A stretch of 64,000 nucleotides of DNA from an uncultured SAR116 cluster alpha proteobacterium (GTDB taxonomy: Bacteria; Pseudomonadota; Alphaproteobacteria; Puniceispirillales; Marisalimonadaceae): contig CACNEF010000003.1 of the NCBI GenBank assembly GCA_902619485.1, positions 1 to 64,000 of the forward strand. The letters are read 5' to 3'. Both the position numbers and the translations under genes were made by a program. Below are positions 2-8,132 of this stretch, piece by piece. The notes under the pieces were generated by a model. It was not told the DNA's origin. It was given only the letters and a program-made list of their open reading frames with translations, and did no database searches. Numbering within the stretch: the stretch's first letter is position 1; each line of letters starts with the position of its first letter.

Positions 2-328
2 CAAATCAAAAAGGATAAAATAAAAGATAGGAATAAGCTAATTAATATTAATAAAGAGTTAAATGAGATTGAAACTGTAGTTGAAGAACACAAAAATGAT
101 TTGAAAATCTTACCATTAATAAAAACTCTTAAAAATACTAATTTAAAATTATGGGAAATTGAAGATAAAATTAGGGTAAAAGAAAGTTTAAAAGAGTTTG
201 ATAAGGATTTTATACAATTAGCTAGGTCAGTTTATATAGTAAATGATAAACGAGCGGAAATTAAAAAAGATATTAATTTGAAAACAAACTCAAATTTAAT
301 AGAAGAAAAGTCTTATAAACAATATTAG
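2..328 (+). CDS. DUF6165 family protein, C-terminal part (5' end outside window)
   Basis: The reading frame is open from base 2 to the TAA at 328, giving the last 108 residues of a gene that begins upstream of the window. The visible part is highly charged and helical, with no membrane segment. Its end carries a run that I recognise from memory as DUF6165: LWEIEDKIR, then LARSVY, then NDKRAEIKKDIN and a final EEKSY. The biochemical role of DUF6165 is unknown. The gene is co-oriented with the flagellin that starts 85 bases downstream, but a candidate promoter lies between them, so co-transcription is not required. The family assignment is a recollection of motifs, not a search result. Confidence 0.65.
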   Translation, partial: QIKKDKIKDRNKLININKELNEIETVVEEHKNDLKILPLIKTLKNTNLKLWEIEDKIRVKESLKEFDKDFIQLARSVYIVNDKRAEIKKDINLKTNSNLIEEKSYKQY

Positions 329-413: not shown

Positions 414-3400
414 ATGACAAGTATAAATACAAATGTTGGAGCTTTAAAAGCTCAAAACAACATGTTAGATCAGTCTTCTAAAATGGAAGATGCGATGACA
501 CGCCTTTCAAGCGGATTAAGAATTAACTCAGCAGCAGATGATGCTGCCGGTTCTGCTATTGCAAGTAAAATGGAAGCTCAAGTGAGAAGCCTTGGTGTTG
601 CAATCAGAAATTCATATGACGCTATATCAATGACGCAAACAGCTGAGGGTGCTCTAGGTGAGATGGAAAATATCTTGCAAAGAGTTCGTGAATTAGCTGT
701 TCAGGCAGGAAATAGTACATTAAGTGCTGTTGATAGAAGTATGATACAGAATGAAGTTGATGCACTTTTAAAAGAAGTCGATGCTATAGCAGGCGATACT
801 AATTTTAATGGTGTTAATTTATTAAGTGGTGCAAACGCAAATGTAAATTTTCAAATTGGTATAGAAGCAGATGACTCATTAGAAGTTAATCTAGAAAAAT
901 CTGATACTCAGGCATTAGGTTTAGCTGGATCAAAAGGTGTTTCTACGCTAACTAGTGAGAGAATTTCAAAAACTAATTATGCTGCAACTGGTGCAAGTAT
1001 TGCAAAAGCAGATGTTAAGATTAATGGTTTTGACGCATTAAGTACTGCGTTTTCAGATAACTTATCAAGTAACTCAAATGCAGCTAAAGCTGTTGCTGAT
1101 GCAATTAACTTACAAACTGGTGTTCACGGAGTAACAGCAGACGCTTTCAATACTCTGCAATCAGTAGCAAAAGGTCCTTTTGCGCAAACTAGTTCTTTTA
1201 CAATCAATAGTAACACAGTTGCTTTAGCTACAAGCTATTCAGGATTAGTTGATAATATAAACGAGGCTGTTTCAGGTATTGTGGCTGTTTTAAATAGCGA
1301 TAATACTATAACTTTATCAAATAAAACTGGCGCTGAGATTGTTATTGCTGAAGGTTCTGGAACAACTGGAGCTGCTGACGTAGGTTTTACAGCTGGTACA
1401 TATACTGGAATGATTTCTCTTGAGAATAATGACGGTAGTAAAGTACGTATTGAAGCAGGAAATAGTACTAATGGATACGCTAAGGGACTTGGTACAATAG
1501 CTGACGTTAATGCACTTGGATTTAACGAATCAAGTGACGGCAATGTTGTAGAGTCAGCTGTAGTTAGTGGAGCTGCCATTGTAGCAGATGAACTTTCTCT
1601 TAATGACGTATTAGTAGGACCATCTGATAATGGAACAGCTTTTTCTATTGCTAAAGCTATCAATGAAAAAACTGCTGAACATGGTGTTACTGCCAATGCT
1701 AAAACACAAGCTGAATTAAGACTTAATACAACATCAATACCTTCTCAAATGAGCATTAACGGTAATAATGTTAATTTAAGTACTGCTGTCGATGTTGCTG
1801 GCGTAGTAAGTGCGATCAATACTGCTAACATTGGTGATATTAGGGCTACTACTAACTCTGATGGTAAACTTGTACTAACAAGTGAATCTGGAGTTGATAT
1901 TAAAGTATCTCATAATACTTCAAGTGACTTTATAGAATCTTATAAAGATATCAATGGCACAGAATCATTCTATGGTTTACAAAAAGGCATAACTGATAAA
2001 GATTATGTTGTAGCAGCTGCAACAATAAATACTACAGCAACTCTTACTGCGGCTGTTCAAGCAAATACTAATTTAAATTCATTTGTAACAATTAATGATA
2101 TAGCTGGTAATGCACAAACAGGTGTAGTATATACAATTGTAGGAACTGACATGGATGGTAACTCTCAAACTGAAAATATTACTGGTCCTGTAGCTTCAAA
2201 AAGTGTTATTGGTACAAAAATATTTAAAACTATTACAAGTGTGACAACAGACGGAACTACTACTGGTAATGTGTCCGTTGGTCTAGCTAAAGCTAGTACA
2301 GACATTGACAGCTTGGTAACTTCTACAGATATTGGTGCTGCAGGTGCTTACGTATTAAATGGTACATTAGCAAACAATACTGATTTAGATGCATTTGTTA
2401 TGATATCTTCTGCAGCTAATGATTCTGGTAACACTTTTACAATTACTGGTACTGACAGATTTGGTAATGTGATTTCTGAAAGTATTGCTGGTGGTAATAT
2501 TGCTCCAGTTCAAACAAGTAAGCGATTTGGAAGTGTAACTGCAATTAGTGCTAATGCTGACATGGGCTCTGTTCAAATTGGAACAACAAGAGAGTTTGCT
2601 GCATTACAAGGTGCTGCAGCAGTTACTACTACAGAGACTTATGCTGCACAGGGCTTATTAACTGCAACTGACATTAATGCTGCCGGTGCATACACACTAA
2701 ACGGAGCTCTTAAGGATTTTACAGATCTTGGGGCAGTTGTTAGTATTGTAAGCACTGGTAATGATAGTTCTGGTACATTTACAGTCACAGGAACTGACAT
2801 GAATGGCCAGACACAAACTGAAACAATTGCAGGAGCTAACGCAGGTACAGCTACAGGTACTAAAATATTTAAAACTGTAGGTGGTGTAAGTGTAGATATT
2901 GATGCTGGTTCTGTCACAATTGGAGCGATTTCAGTATATGACAGTTTTAATGTAAGAGGTAATTTGTCTCTTTCAACAGACAAAAATTCTACCATTAAAA
3001 TTGATACTGTTGCAGCAGATAATGTGACAGCAATGACTGCAGGTTCAGGTGGTGTTGAAGCTTCTCTTCAGAAAATAGGTCTTCAAAAGCAGGGTCAAAG
3101 CTTTGAAGTCACAGGAGCAGGTCTAGACATGCTTACTGAAGCAGGCGCTCTTAAATCATTAGCTGATATTGATGCTGCAATAACTCAAGTTTCTAGTTTT
3201 AGAGCATCTTTTGGTGCTGTTGAAAATAGAATTGATGCAGCTATCAATAACTTAAACACTTTGAAGTTAAATACTGAGGCTTCTCAGGCTAGAATTCAAG
3301 ATGCAGATTTTGCTGCTGAGACTTCTAGAATGACAAAAGCTCAGATTTTGTCGCAGGCAGCTACATCAATGCTTGCACAAGCAAACGCTTCAAAACAAAA

Positions 3401-3425
3401 CCTTTTAGCTCTTCTTCAAGGATAA
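414..3425 (+). CDS. fliC: Giant flagellin (flagellin 1, 1003 aa)
   Basis: Filament subunit exported by the flagellar type III system. The conserved N-terminal D0/D1 region spans residues 1-140 (INTN near the start, TRLSSGLRINSAADDAAG at 29-46). The conserved C-terminal region spans about 915-1003 and ends ANASKQNLLALLQG. Most flagellins have 300-550 residues; the excess here is in the exposed middle. Residues 199-244 and 389-430 look like Flagellin-IN-type motifs (VKING, SLNDV). Residues 533-837 hold three diverged tandem modules, each with a GTDxxGN/GQ core. A GGAG ribosome site precedes the ATG. Its promoter looks FliA-like, unlike flagellin 2. A strong hairpin terminator follows the stop. 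The paralogues downstream are not close copies, so a multi-flagellin filament is likely. Confidence 0.93.
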   Translation: MTSINTNVGALKAQNNMLDQSSKMEDAMTRLSSGLRINSAADDAAGSAIASKMEAQVRSLGVAIRNSYDAISMTQTAEGALGEMENILQRVRELAVQAGNSTLSAVDRSMIQNEVDALLKEVDAIAGDTNFNGVNLLSGANANVNFQIGIEADDSLEVNLEKSDTQALGLAGSKGVSTLTSERISKTNYAATGASIAKADVKINGFDALSTAFSDNLSSNSNAAKAVADAINLQTGVHGVTADAFNTLQSVAKGPFAQTSSFTINSNTVALATSYSGLVDNINEAVSGIVAVLNSDNTITLSNKTGAEIVIAEGSGTTGAADVGFTAGTYTGMISLENNDGSKVRIEAGNSTNGYAKGLGTIADVNALGFNESSDGNVVESAVVSGAAIVADELSLNDVLVGPSDNGTAFSIAKAINEKTAEHGVTANAKTQAELRLNTTSIPSQMSINGNNVNLSTAVDVAGVVSAINTANIGDIRATTNSDGKLVLTSESGVDIKVSHNTSSDFIESYKDINGTESFYGLQKGITDKDYVVAAATINTTATLTAAVQANTNLNSFVTINDIAGNAQTGVVYTIVGTDMDGNSQTENITGPVASKSVIGTKIFKTITSVTTDGTTTGNVSVGLAKASTDIDSLVTSTDIGAAGAYVLNGTLANNTDLDAFVMISSAANDSGNTFTITGTDRFGNVISESIAGGNIAPVQTSKRFGSVTAISANADMGSVQIGTTREFAALQGAAAVTTTETYAAQGLLTATDINAAGAYTLNGALKDFTDLGAVVSIVSTGNDSSGTFTVTGTDMNGQTQTETIAGANAGTATGTKIFKTVGGVSVDIDAGSVTIGAISVYDSFNVRGNLSLSTDKNSTIKIDTVAADNVTAMTAGSGGVEASLQKIGLQKQGQSFEVTGAGLDMLTEAGALKSLADIDAAITQVSSFRASFGAVENRIDAAINNLNTLKLNTEASQARIQDADFAAETSRMTKAQILSQAATSMLAQANASKQNLLALLQG
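2010..2924 (+). repeat. Three diverged tandem modules within flagellin 1
   Basis: Residues 533-623, 636-723 and 748-837 align by eye. Each starts with an alternating hydrophobic strand region (NTNLNSFVTI, NTDLDAFVMI, FTDLGAVVSI). A core follows (IVGTDMDGNSQTENI, ITGTDRFGNVISESI, VTGTDMNGQTQTETI). Each then has a K-x-F segment and ends in a short VxxG/IG strand. The modules are diverged at DNA level, so they are old duplications. Flagellin 2 carries related units. Confidence 0.8.
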
Positions 3426-3442: not shown

Positions 3443-3472
3443 AAAAAGGCCACCTTGAGGTGGCCTTTTTTT
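3443..3472. terminator. Bidirectional intrinsic terminator between flagellin 1 and the TPR gene
   Basis: A perfect 12-bp stem (AAAAAGGCCACC, 3443-3454) with a TTGA loop pairs with GGTGGCCTTTTT (3459-3470) and runs into further T residues. A-runs and T-runs flank both sides, so it can terminate flagellin 1 on the + strand and the TPR gene arriving on the - strand. It is the only strong G+C-rich terminator I found in the window. Confidence 0.92.
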
Positions 3473-3598: not shown

Positions 3599-5083
3599 TT
3601 ATGCAGGTAATAAGTCAAATGCGATTACACATCTTTCAACATTTTGTTTTACTGGAATTGTTTTATGAAATAAAGAAGATGGGAATAATATCAAATCTCC
3701 AATTTTTGGTTGATGCATAATTCTTGGATAATCATGACTAAGGACTTTATAATTATATCCATGTTGGCTAAGTTCAATAGCACCTTCAAATTCAGTGGGA
3801 TTTTGAACTACTTTCAAATAAAACACACCACTTACCAATCCATCTGGATGAATATGACTTTCTTGATGGCCTTCTTGCAAAAGTTTTACATACCATCCAT
3901 TTAATTTTAAATTCGTTGGCCAGTTTTTAAACAAGCTGTAACTTGGGTTATAATATTTTTTAAAATATTTCTCTAATTGATTTGTTATAATTTTTTCTAA
4001 TATTTTTAAATTTTTACTACAATCTGAGAATAAATTCCCTGTAGTTTGAAAGCCATTCCGTGTTGTAGTATGAGGTGTTTCCCAAATATTGTCTAAACTT
4101 TCAACCTCATTAGATAAATTTTGTATGTATGTCTGGTAATCTTGAATATAGTTTTCTAAATTATCAACCAAAAATAATTTTTCAGGTTTATGGCAAAAAG
4201 GATATATGTCTTTTATTTTAAATTGATTACACCCAAATGTACTTACAGCAGCTACTCTTACATTGCATTCATTTTTTAATTTTACTTTGTTAATTTCTGT
4301 GACGAAATCATTTATATTTCCATTTTGATATGAACACTCTATTACTTTTGCGACTGATTTTGCATCATTAAATTCTTGAAAACATTTTTTTGCTTTTTCA
4401 TAGTCTTCCAATGAATAATAAAGTTCACCTAGATTTTTTTTTGTATTTGATAAATTTGGGTTTATTTCAAGAGCCAAAAGGTAACATTTAAGAGACATTT
4501 TATAATTTTTAATATCCTTATAAACATTTCCTAAATTGTTAAAAGAATCAAAATGATTTGGTATTAATTCAATGGCTTTATTGTAGTTTTTAATTGCTAA
4601 ATCATATTCTTTTTTTTCATAATGAATATTTCCAATGTTGTAATATGAATCTCCAAGATTTGGTTTAATTTCCAGTGATTTAGAAAAATTTCTAAATGAG
4701 GCATCGTAATCTCGTTTGATAAAATTTGTAATACCCAAATTATAATATGCCTCTGCATAATTAGGGTTAATGTTTATTGCATTCTCAAAACTCTCTATTG
4801 AAGCATTTAGATCTCCATTATTTTTTTGTGCATTTCCTAAATTATTATATATTGTTTCAGCTGTTGGATTTATTGCGATTGCCTCTTTATAAGCATTAAT
4901 TGCATGATCAAACAATTTTAAAAAATTTAAGGAAGCACCCAAAATATTATAAAGATTGACTGATTTGGGATATATTTGAAGAAGTTGATTAGCTTTTTCT
5001 ATAGCTTCTTGGTATTTATTAGAATTACAAAGATTAAATAAGATATTCAATTGATCCATTGATGGTTCATTAGAATTATTCAT
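3599..5083 (-). CDS. TPR protein with C-terminal 2OG-Fe(II) oxygenase-like domain
   Basis: Residues 1 to about 245 are about seven tetratricopeptide repeats (recurring A-x-x-x-Y-N-x-x-I-x-x-x-P-N pattern). The C-terminal part, about 320-494, resembles the putative 2-oxoglutarate/Fe(II) oxygenase fold: an H-x-D pair at H412 and D414 (HIHPDG), a distal H473 (LFHKT) and R484 (ERCVIAF), spaced as iron ligands and the 2-oxoglutarate-binding arginine. It starts 28 bases after the flagellin 2 stop on the same strand, with no terminator between, so the two are probably co-transcribed. That suggests a job on flagellin, such as hydroxylating a side chain, with the repeats holding the substrate. The substrate is inference. 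It could also be a more general modification enzyme. There is no signal peptide, so it acts in the cytoplasm. Confidence 0.8.
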   Translation of the reverse strand: MNNSNEPSMDQLNILFNLCNSNKYQEAIEKANQLLQIYPKSVNLYNILGASLNFLKLFDHAINAYKEAIAINPTAETIYNNLGNAQKNNGDLNASIESFENAININPNYAEAYYNLGITNFIKRDYDASFRNFSKSLEIKPNLGDSYYNIGNIHYEKKEYDLAIKNYNKAIELIPNHFDSFNNLGNVYKDIKNYKMSLKCYLLALEINPNLSNTKKNLGELYYSLEDYEKAKKCFQEFNDAKSVAKVIECSYQNGNINDFVTEINKVKLKNECNVRVAAVSTFGCNQFKIKDIYPFCHKPEKLFLVDNLENYIQDYQTYIQNLSNEVESLDNIWETPHTTTRNGFQTTGNLFSDCSKNLKILEKIITNQLEKYFKKYYNPSYSLFKNWPTNLKLNGWYVKLLQEGHQESHIHPDGLVSGVFYLKVVQNPTEFEGAIELSQHGYNYKVLSHDYPRIMHQPKIGDLILFPSSLFHKTIPVKQNVERCVIAFDLLPA

Positions 5084-5111
5084 TTTAGCCTTCTAAATCT
5101 TACCATTTAAC

Positions 5112-7637
5112 TTATTGTTGTAATAGTTGTAAGACGTTCTGTTGAGCTTTTCCAGCTTGTGCTATCATTGCCATTGCAGATTGTTGTAAAATTTGTGCCT
5201 TAGTCATCCTTGCAGACTCTTTTGCAAAATCAGCATCTTCAATTCTACCTCTTGAAGCTTTTGTGTTTAGGGCTACGTTTGACAAATTATCAATAGCTTT
5301 TTCCATTCTACTCATTAAAGCACCAAGCTTTGCTCTTTCTTTATGAATTCTATCAAGGGACCTATCTAAAACACGTAAAGCATCAACAGAAGATTGTCTT
5401 GTTAATAGGCTTACACCTGATAACTTATCTAATGATGCTGCGCCAGGTGATGCCTCAAATAGGCCTTTTCCATCTTCACCGACTACAGTGAAACTGTTGC
5501 TAGATGACATTTCTAGTTGTCCAGTAACAATTACAGAATCTGCTGGCTTTAATCCAATTTTAATTTCTCCAGTGGTTGCACCTGAATTAACTACAGTATG
5601 AATTGTTTTAAATATACGTCTTCCAGTAACAGTTTTATTAGCTTCTGGTCCAGTAATAACCTCTACTAGAGTATTTCCAGACATGTCTGTACCAGTAACT
5701 GTAAAGGTTTTGCCGCTCTCATCACTTGCAGAACTTGTGATAGTTATAAGGGCACTTTGGTTTACTATGGTATTTAAAACACCTACACTAACACTAGCAT
5801 TACTGTCAGTTTGAGACGGTATTACAGACGTAACTGTACCAAATACGTTAGTTGTTTGTTGGGTTTGGTTCTGTGCAGAAAATGCAGGTACAGTTTCTTG
5901 AAGTTGATTTCCATAAACATCAGTACCTGTCACTAAAAAGGTTCCATCTGTGATTTCAGTTGAAGTTAATGTAACAATAGAATTATGAACTGTTGCTGTG
6001 TTAGTCAAAGCATAAATAGGGTTTTTAGTACCTACTATGATACTAGCATTTGAATCAGTTGCTAGAGGTATTACAGCCGTAACGGTTGCAAATGTATTAG
6101 TTGTTTCTTTGGTTTGGTTCTGTGCAGAAAATGCAGCTATAGTTTCTTCAAGCGCATTTCCAAAAATATCAGTACCAACAACTTTAAAACCTTGATCTGT
6201 GACTTCAGTTGAGGTGATTGTTATAACAGAATTATGTAATGCTGTTGAATCAATTATAGTCAAGCTTTCTGTACCTGTAAATCCTGAATTAATAGCCTGA
6301 GTTGTAACAATTCTATTATTATCATCGGTGTTAATAGCCTGAGATCCAGCTATAGCAGTGGCATTTGTTGCTGCACTACGTGGGCCAGTTGATGTAAAAG
6401 CTCTAGGGTTTGTGGTCCCAAGTCTACCACCAATTGTTTCAACTTGTGTTAGCGTTCCAGTATAAATACCATCATCATCAGTTGTCGTTACATTTGTATC
6501 TCCAAGAGATACTGCGTCACCAGCTACAACTTCATTATTGTCCAAACTAGTGACTAATAAAGTTCTTCTAGAACCTGTCGTTGTTGTATCTCCTGCAAAA
6601 TTTACATCACCTAGTTTAATGTCAAAACCTTCGTTTTGCACTAAAATCATTGATGATTTGTCTGTAGAAAGGGTTGCTGTTACACCTGTAGTAGTTGTGT
6701 AATTATTAATTGAATCTCTTAATTCAGATAATACGGAACTTCCTTCATTGTTATTCAGTGTAACATTTGCAGCTATTGTAACAGCCGTTGTATTTTTACC
6801 TTGTATACTAAATGAAAGACTTGTTTGGCCATTATAAGCTTTATCTAAAGTTTTAGCTTGAATTTTAAGTTGAGTAGAAGCTAAAGCTGAAACTCCTGTT
6901 GAGTCAAAAACCGCATTAACAGAAGTAGCTATGTCTCTTACGTTAGATCCAGCTGCTGCTGTAACAGATGAACTTCCAAGAATACCGTGAATTGTAAATG
7001 ATTCCGCCTGTACCAAATTTGTTTCAGATGTATCTGAAACTGCGTATGCATTTAATGCTAAATTATCATTATCAACAGCGCTATTAGCAATATCAGTAGT
7101 TTCTGTTCCTTGTGATGTTGCTTTATATGCTCCTAAACTATCTAATCTCATTGATGAAATTGATAATTGAGCAAATTCACGCTCATGTGTTCCAATTTGG
7201 AAACGTCTATCAGCAAATGACCCATCTAATACAGCTATTTCATTAAAAGTTGTATCTCTAGTTACACGATCTAATTCAGCCAATAATTGGTCAACTTCAG
7301 CGTCAATATATGCACGTTCTTCACCATTATAAGTGTCTGATGCTGATTGAATAGCTAGTTCTCTAATTCTTTGTATAATTGATGAAGATTCATCTAATGC
7401 ACCTTCAGTAACCTGTGCCATAGAAATAACGTCAGCAGCATTCCTTACTGATTGCTCCAATCCTCTAATCTGTGCGGTCATCCTGTCTGCAATTGCAGCA
7501 CCAGCTGCATCATCACCAGCATGATTAATACGTTTTCCTGATGACAAACGCTCCATCGAAGTTGTCATTTCACGTTCTGTTGCATTTAACTTATTAAGTG
7601 CAAACTGAGCTGCGGAGTTAGTATTTACTGTTGGCAT
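5112..7637 (-). CDS. Large flagellin (flagellin 2, 841 aa)
   Basis: Filament subunit. The N-terminal flagellin region is residues 1-140 (MPTVNTNSAAQFALNKLN, RLSSGKRINHAGDDAAGAAIA). The C-terminal region is about 745-841, with DADFAKESARMTKAQILQQS and ending NVLQLLQQ. The frame extends 11 codons further upstream, but MPTVNTN is the canonical start and a GGAG site sits ahead of that ATG (7637). The middle holds three modules (458-536, 541-619, 626-696) related to those of flagellin 1. A near-perfect sigma-54 promoter lies 34 bases upstream of the start, so this flagellin should follow the sigma-54 cascade, unlike flagellins 1 and 3. The TPR-oxygenase gene follows in the same orientation. Confidence 0.92.
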   Translation of the reverse strand: MPTVNTNSAAQFALNKLNATEREMTTSMERLSSGKRINHAGDDAAGAAIADRMTAQIRGLEQSVRNAADVISMAQVTEGALDESSSIIQRIRELAIQSASDTYNGEERAYIDAEVDQLLAELDRVTRDTTFNEIAVLDGSFADRRFQIGTHEREFAQLSISSMRLDSLGAYKATSQGTETTDIANSAVDNDNLALNAYAVSDTSETNLVQAESFTIHGILGSSSVTAAAGSNVRDIATSVNAVFDSTGVSALASTQLKIQAKTLDKAYNGQTSLSFSIQGKNTTAVTIAANVTLNNNEGSSVLSELRDSINNYTTTTGVTATLSTDKSSMILVQNEGFDIKLGDVNFAGDTTTTGSRRTLLVTSLDNNEVVAGDAVSLGDTNVTTTDDDGIYTGTLTQVETIGGRLGTTNPRAFTSTGPRSAATNATAIAGSQAINTDDNNRIVTTQAINSGFTGTESLTIIDSTALHNSVITITSTEVTDQGFKVVGTDIFGNALEETIAAFSAQNQTKETTNTFATVTAVIPLATDSNASIIVGTKNPIYALTNTATVHNSIVTLTSTEITDGTFLVTGTDVYGNQLQETVPAFSAQNQTQQTTNVFGTVTSVIPSQTDSNASVSVGVLNTIVNQSALITITSSASDESGKTFTVTGTDMSGNTLVEVITGPEANKTVTGRRIFKTIHTVVNSGATTGEIKIGLKPADSVIVTGQLEMSSSNSFTVVGEDGKGLFEASPGAASLDKLSGVSLLTRQSSVDALRVLDRSLDRIHKERAKLGALMSRMEKAIDNLSNVALNTKASRGRIEDADFAKESARMTKAQILQQSAMAMIAQAGKAQQNVLQLLQQ
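5550..6266 (-). repeat. Tandem modules within flagellin 2, two units recently duplicated
   Basis: Units at 6030-6266 and 5781-6017 are offset by exactly 249 bp (83 codons). They keep DNA stretches such as CTGTGCAGAAAATGCAG identical (starting at 5871 and 6120), which points to fairly recent tandem duplication. At protein level both read TSTE.TD, then GTD.(F/Y)GN.L.ET, then AFSAQNQT. The third unit (5550-5762) is diverged and resembles the flagellin 1 modules (VTGTDMSGNTLVEVITGPEA). Confidence 0.85.
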
Positions 7638-7669: not shown

Positions 7670-7686
7670 CTGCAATTGTTATGCCA
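7670..7686 (-). promoter_or_regulatory. Sigma-54 promoter of flagellin 2
   Basis: On the - strand the site reads TGGCATAACAATTGCAG. GG and GC are separated by exactly ten bases, as the -24/-12 elements require. The expected transcription start is about 12 bases past the GC, leaving a short leader before the ATG at 7637. Confidence 0.85.
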
Positions 7687-7704: not shown

Positions 7705-8061
7705 TTAAGCTAATTTTTCAAAAGATTTTTTTAATTGTGTAATATTATTAGGAACGGCACTTATCATGTTATATCGCGTAATTATTTCATTGTGGAAATA
7801 TGAAGGAGATAAAGAAGCCCGTGATCTAATAAAACTTTCAGTAAGTGAGCCATTGCTCGCACTTTGATTATTAACATATACATGCCTTATGAAATTAGGA
7901 GGTTCATTATTTAAAGCTCTTTTTGGAACGCCAGTTTCGGTTACAATTCTATTTTTAGTTGGCATACTGTTTGCAGTTAAACTAGAGCTTTCATTCCTTA
8001 GAGGTCTAGAAGCATAAATCTCATTAATAGCATATGGGTTATGTAAATTATTATTAATCAT
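7705..8061 (-). CDS. Hypothetical protein of about 118 aa upstream of flagellin 2
   Basis: Not recognised. The reading frame lies on the - strand between fliS (divergent) and the sigma-54 promoter of flagellin 2. I chose the ATG at 8061 (MINNNLHNPYAIN); an ATG five codons earlier (8076) is equally possible, as neither has a clear ribosome site. The product is polar, with many Asn and Ser residues, no membrane segment, and a possible short C-terminal helix (ITQLKKSFEKLA). No overlapping gene explains the frame, and it fills a gap in a dense flagellar locus, so it is probably real. A small secreted or regulatory flagellar protein would fit the position, but nothing in the sequence proves it. 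Confidence 0.5.
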   Translation of the reverse strand: MINNNLHNPYAINEIYASRPLRNESSSLTANSMPTKNRIVTETGVPKRALNNEPPNFIRHVYVNNQSASNGSLTESFIRSRASLSPSYFHNEIITRYNMISAVPNNITQLKKSFEKLA

Positions 8062-8132
8062 AATGTAGATAAACATAAAAACTATGAAAAATCAAATTTT
8101 TGACAATTATTTTATAGAGTTGAGACTGTATC

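Follow-up and report, generated by a model that had tools for sequence, protein, structure and literature searches.

Gene arrangement at the flagellin locus

The window analyzed here is a stretch of 64,000 nucleotides that forms the start of contig C3 in a 1.62-Mb, 78% complete assembly of an uncultured SAR116 cluster alphaproteobacterium (GCA_902619485.1; genome G000 in our survey). Near its beginning, two flagellin genes converge, and the gene of flagellin 2 is followed on the same strand by a gene for a protein that combines tetratricopeptide repeats (TPRs) with an oxygenase-like domain (Table 1). Flagellin 2 has both domains expected of a bacterial flagellin, PF00669 (E 1.4e-41) and PF00700 (E 3.5e-25), according to Pfam.

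Table 1. Features of the flagellin 2/TPR-oxygenase locus (positions in the window)
Feature	Positions	Strand	Description
Flagellin 1	414..3425	+	1003 aa; convergent neighbour
Hairpin terminator	3443..3470	-	end of flagellin 2/oxygenase transcript; just behind convergent flagellin 1
TPR/PF13759 oxygenase-like gene, whole	3599..5083	-	494 aa, ATG start
C-terminal region, aa 236-494	3602..4378	-	helical linker, then PF13759 double-stranded beta-helix; invariant H410, H412, H473, R484
N-terminal domain, aa 1-235	4379..5083	-	seven TPRs, superhelix like that of O-GlcNAc transferase TPRs
Spacer between flagellin 2 and oxygenase gene	5084..5111	-	28 bases; ribosome-binding-like AGAAGG; no terminator
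Flagellin 2	5112..7637	-	841 aa; PF00669 + PF00700; presumed co-transcribed partner, candidate substrate
Sigma-54-type promoter site TGGCATAACAATTGCA	7671..7686	-	upstream of flagellin 2; oxygenase gene by read-through

The initial annotation placed the oxygenase-like gene 28 bases behind flagellin 2 and expected the two to share a sigma-54 transcript. The spacer is exactly of this length, and no terminator-like site was found within it, the sole one nearby on the minus strand being the hairpin at 3443-3470. Together with the TGGCATAACAATTGCA site upstream of flagellin 2, this agrees with a shared transcript. The oxygenase gene lacks a sigma-54-type site of its own, as expected if it is read through from flagellin 2.

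Domain architecture and predicted structure

At least six TPR matches (E down to 3e-44) were mapped by Pfam in the 494-residue protein, together with PF13759 (2OG-FeII_Oxy_5) at residues 397-490 (67.9 bits, curated cut-off 27 bits, E 1.1e-18). The related NCBIfam model TIGR02466 scored 44.9 bits, below its curated cut-off of 62.5 bits. No Pfam match to the AspH-type oxygenase family was obtained within E 0.1, and PF13759 was assigned instead. The AlphaFold2 model of the whole protein (mean pLDDT 91.5) consists of seven TPR helix pairs (residues 9-235), more helices and beta-strands at residues 392-493, in line with the count of about seven TPRs in the initial annotation.

Since whole-protein searches returned mostly unrelated TPR proteins, the C-terminal domain was used as the query instead. 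Its separate model, based on a 35-row alignment (pLDDT 94.8, pTM 0.91), is a double-stranded beta-helix, the fold anticipated from sequence. The closest fold matches are 3bvc (Z 19.6, rmsd 3.7, 185 aligned residues) and 2rg4 (Z 19.2), both unnamed PF13759 structures. They are followed by prolyl hydroxylases, namely that of Pseudomonas putida (Z 17.0) and PHD2; cyanophage oxygenase-like proteins and HygX, the latter solved with a bound aminoglycoside, are also among the matches. For the whole model, VIA-align matches were taken up by TPR proteins. Foldseek matched it to the TPR domains of O-GlcNAc transferase and to human AspH, the latter over 508-518 columns (7yb9, 6yyu and 5jqy; TM 0.40-0.44 by query length).

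Putative active site

An H-x-D...H...R set suitable for iron and 2-oxoglutarate had been read from the sequence, but its aspartate is not conserved. The window protein does contain H412-P-D414; however, D414 varies freely among the 35 aligned relatives, whereas H410, H412, H473 and R484 are invariant in all of them. The conserved motif is therefore H-x-H...H...R, built on H410-x-H412...H473, and not the canonical H-x-D/E...H facial triad. In canonical enzymes a basic residue for 2-oxoglutarate stands roughly 10 residues behind the last His; R484, 11 residues after H473, is close to this position. Judged from conservation, the metal is likely bound by the H-x-H...H set and 2-oxoglutarate by R484. 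As the H-x-H motif is unlike that of canonical 2-oxoglutarate oxygenases, the chemistry is uncertain. In human AspH the metal is bound by two histidines only, His679 and His725 (PMC6817910), and by this analogy the departure from H-x-D can be compatible with hydroxylation.

Distribution of the oxygenase domain

A single-sequence scan of genome contigs gave no matches, and 79 PF13759-type loci, many of them from Prochlorococcus and SAR11, were kept in an alignment-based scan. Flagellins occur within the fetched flanks of only three of these loci. Two (L141 and L176) belong to the SAR116 family; in the third (L101) the flagellin is about 4.4 kb from the gene and was taken as a chance neighbour, since the similarly arranged L102 has no flagellin match. 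Relatives of the oxygenase domain are also present on contigs filed as viral.

In a class-wide sample, the domain was detected in 41 of 385 genomes (E 1e-30), 22 of which have no flagellin match. Eighteen domain-holding genomes other than G000 also encode flagellins, and in none of them are the two close together. The alphaproteobacterial relatives in G073-G075 lie near TPR-GT41 genes and apparent sugar-nucleotide genes. Widespread occurrence in marine bacteria, often in the absence of flagellins, and the lack of linkage outside SAR116 indicate a general enzyme family that is not specific to flagellin. The use of a PF13759 enzyme at flagellins thus looks like a recruitment within SAR116.

Linkage to flagellins in the SAR116 family

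Within the SAR116 family (58 genomes), 53 PF13759 genes scored above the cut-off, 7 of them TPR-fused and 46 unfused. Five of the seven fused genes (in G000, G015 and G018, and two in G034) have a flagellin at a distance of about 6 kb or less, and a single unfused gene (1/46, G024) is linked. The difference is pronounced (Fisher p 4e-5), although this value is only a guide because related genomes are not independent. The linkage to flagellins that the initial annotation proposed to check in relatives is therefore upheld within the SAR116 family, but it does not extend to other alphaproteobacteria in which both genes occur. The linked PF13759 genes of G015, G018 and G034 adjoin TPR-GT41 or TPR-methyltransferase genes.

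For two of the seven fused copies no flagellin locus was seen, and we count them against a role in flagellin modification: the copy in G039 is on a 7.8-kb contig without a flagellin, and that in G008 is remote from flagellins and has other TPR enzymes around it.

Interchangeable catalytic ends

The window gene belongs to a larger repertoire. At least one TPR-type modification gene is present at 26 of the 39 flagellin loci surveyed in the SAR116 family. Counted by genomes, the types at these 39 loci are GT41 (9), L060x (9), methyltransferase (8), TPRy (7), PF13759 (5, including the unfused gene of G024) and other TPR genes (8). The C-terminal domains of the TPRy and L060x types have no Pfam identification, and that of L060x gave no PDB profile match. 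Faint heptosyltransferase-like matches of the L060x type (NCBIfam E 0.03-0.04) are a lead only.

In G007 a TPR-GT41 glycosyltransferase gene takes the corresponding place, with a spacer of about 28 bases after flagellin 2, and in several relatives with an empty slot a terminator-like hairpin directly follows flagellin 2. Comparison of TPR domains did not place that of the window gene clearly nearer to those at flagellin loci than to others. In G000 a second TPR gene, with weak similarity to an unassigned type that may be a glycosyltransferase, adjoins fliD on contig C5. A search of the assembled part of this genome detected no GT41 gene. Since this second gene is present and the stretch between flagellin 1 and fliD is missing, interrupted by a contig end, the absence is neutral for the earlier suggestion that the enzyme prepares a handle to which a sugar is added later. 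Overall, SAR116 flagellins are often accompanied by a modular, exchangeable set of TPR enzymes, of which the window gene is one part.

Sigma-54-type sites

Sites were defined by at most two mismatches to TGGCAC-N5-TTGCA, with GG and GC obligatory. Such a site precedes 28 of the 53 TPR-type genes at SAR116 flagellin loci, whereas the rate in dinucleotide shuffles, run on 19 of the upstream regions, is 0.5%. PF13759 genes elsewhere have a site in 2 of 81 cases; for the remaining genes at these flagellin loci, which include flagellar ones, the figure is 40 of 234. In the window alone, sites with at most one mismatch occur no less often than chance would predict (5 found, 2.28 expected). The argument from TGGCATAACAATTGCA rests on its position and on the relatives.

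Proposed function and alternatives

Several lines of evidence support considering the TPR-oxygenase as a candidate flagellin-modifying enzyme: the transcript that it appears to share with flagellin 2, the preferential linkage of fused over unfused genes to flagellins, the slot exchange seen in G007 along with the frequency of TPR-type genes at flagellin loci, the enrichment of sigma-54-type sites before these genes, the whole-model match to AspH, and a C-terminal fold nearest to PF13759 structures and then to prolyl hydroxylases. That it is a hydroxylase of flagellin is unproven. Our best explanation, which we hold with slightly better than even confidence, is a cytoplasmic flagellin-modifying TPR-oxygenase, built on an adaptor like that of FlmG and acting before export. 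By analogy with FlmG, the TPR domain would grip flagellin, most probably flagellin 2, soon after its synthesis. Side chains of the bound flagellin would then be oxidized, most simply by hydroxylation, by the C-terminal Fe(II)/2-oxoglutarate-type domain prior to export. Catalytic activity, hydroxylation, the substrate residue and timing are the parts of this scheme that we infer. The TPR-oxygenase would represent one of several TPR-fused catalytic ends in exchangeable slots around SAR116 flagellin genes, with the slots probably under flagellar sigma-54-type control. Given the FlmG precedent, the window gene is read most simply as a version in which an oxygenase has replaced the glycosyltransferase. 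A broader proposal, a mix-and-match system of TPR adaptors with swapped heads, in which the oxygenase version hydroxylates the filament protein and the modification is new, is in our view slightly less likely than not.

The enzyme might instead oxidize a sugar on, or destined for, flagellin, with the TPR domain holding a glycoprotein or a partner glycosyltransferase. The TPR-GT41 and TPR-methyltransferase neighbours in G015, G018 and G034, the surroundings of the relatives in G073-G075, the TPR gene at fliD in G000 and the presence of HygX among the fold matches all fit this idea. However, among the fold matches whose substrates are known, the best are protein hydroxylases, and GT41 is missing from the assembled part of G000. 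Judged by fold, protein hydroxylation is therefore favoured, and we regard sugar oxidation as unlikely. Somewhat less likely still is a different protein or surface structure as substrate, in which case the position behind flagellin 2 would be incidental or would only lend the gene a promoter. This would account for a family that occurs commonly in bacteria lacking flagellins and is unlinked outside SAR116, but chance is hard to invoke for five linked genes in four SAR116 genomes, exchange of slots and sigma-54-type sites.

TPR proteins can serve as secretion chaperones, and the metal motif has H-x-H in place of H-x-D; both points would suit a TPR chaperone for flagellin that is catalytically idle or sensory, with a fold that senses 2-oxoglutarate, iron or oxygen. 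The invariance of H410, H412, H473 and R484 in 35 diverse relatives argues for an active site that is in use, and we consider such a chaperone very improbable.

Known flagellin modifications are mainly glycosylation, with some methylation. If the proposed function of the TPR-oxygenase is correct, its place in a flagellin transcript would add oxidation to this list, and slot exchange would illustrate the reuse of a single adaptor design for different chemistries. Changes of the filament surface could affect phage attack and predation in the sea, where SAR116 is widespread. No report of flagellin hydroxylation or of a flagellin-linked TPR oxygenase was found in the open literature searched, such absence being weak evidence.

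Comparison with known systems

Among solved structures, 3bvc and 2rg4 (PF13759/TIGR02466) belong to the same domain family as the window protein, provide the best fold match and have the HIH motif in common with it in the sequence alignment. However, they are stand-alone proteins of about 200 residues without TPRs, in contrast to the TPR-fused window protein. Prolyl hydroxylases (P. putida P4H with EF-Tu, PHD2 and P4H) have the double-stranded beta-helix as well (Z 15-17) and act on protein substrates. They use H-x-D...H, whereas the window protein has H-x-H...H, and sequence identity is only about 15%.

Human AspH likewise joins a TPR superhelix to a 2-oxoglutarate oxygenase fold, as reflected by the whole-model match of about 510 columns. 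It hydroxylates EGF-like domains and needs its TPR domain for this (PMC6817910). Yet its oxygenase belongs to another family, and it works in the ER lumen.

In its biological setting, the window protein resembles FlmG of Caulobacter crescentus, a flagellin glycosyltransferase composed of TPR and GT-B domains, in which the TPR domain binds flagellins and modification takes place in the cytoplasm (PMC7591256). Both proteins are alphaproteobacterial and flagellin-related, and both combine N-terminal TPRs with a C-terminal catalytic-type domain. The difference lies in the C-terminus, which in the window protein is a PF13759 double-stranded beta-helix and not GT-B. By analogy with FlmG, the TPR domain of the window protein may also bind flagellin, and the enzyme would be expected to work in the cytoplasm before export.

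Sequence motif of the flagellins and FliD

Flagellins 1 and 2 of the window each contain three copies of a repeated motif built on GTDxxG, and FliD from this genome has two; flagellin 3 lacks it. The motif would be a module common to filament and cap.

Genes accompanying the flagellin loci

An additional TPR gene, cut by the contig end, probably occupies the flagellin 1/fliD slot of the window's own genome (Table). The small ORF upstream of flagellin 2 matched no Pfam family and has a similar ORF upstream of flagellin 2 in genome G018; the DUF6165 match next to flagellin 1 scored 31.8 bits (cut-off 27).

In genome G024, FliD and a TPR-fused glycosyltransferase (TPR-GT41) gene flank an unfused PF13759 protein. 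A Magnetovibrio contig, on which no flagellin was seen (L131, 2-12803), carries six TPR genes in a run, two of them methyltransferases and one a PF13759 gene.

Two further genomes have a CysN-CysC-type fusion gene, composed of an EF-Tu-like GTPase and an APS kinase according to Pfam domains read on the G025 copy; the G039 copy was matched through its near-identical end. Such fusions are typical of PAPS synthesis; their position between flagellins 2 and 1 hints at sulfation at these loci.

Table. Positions of the features discussed
Feature	Location	Strand	Remark
DUF6165 protein, C-terminal end	window 2-325	+	adjoins flagellin 1, contig edge
Flagellin 1	window 414-3425	+	
Flagellin 2	window 5112-7637	-	
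123-aa ORF	window 7705-8076	-	directly upstream of flagellin 2
Similar ORF	L039 15054-15416		G018
TPR gene, 427 aa	L180 1-1283	-	adjoins fliD
FliD	L180 1307-3937		
Unfused PF13759 protein, 221 aa	L080 8977-9642		G024, flagellin locus
CysN-CysC-type fusion	L064 8751-10649		G025
CysN-CysC-type fusion	L067 9565-11463		G039
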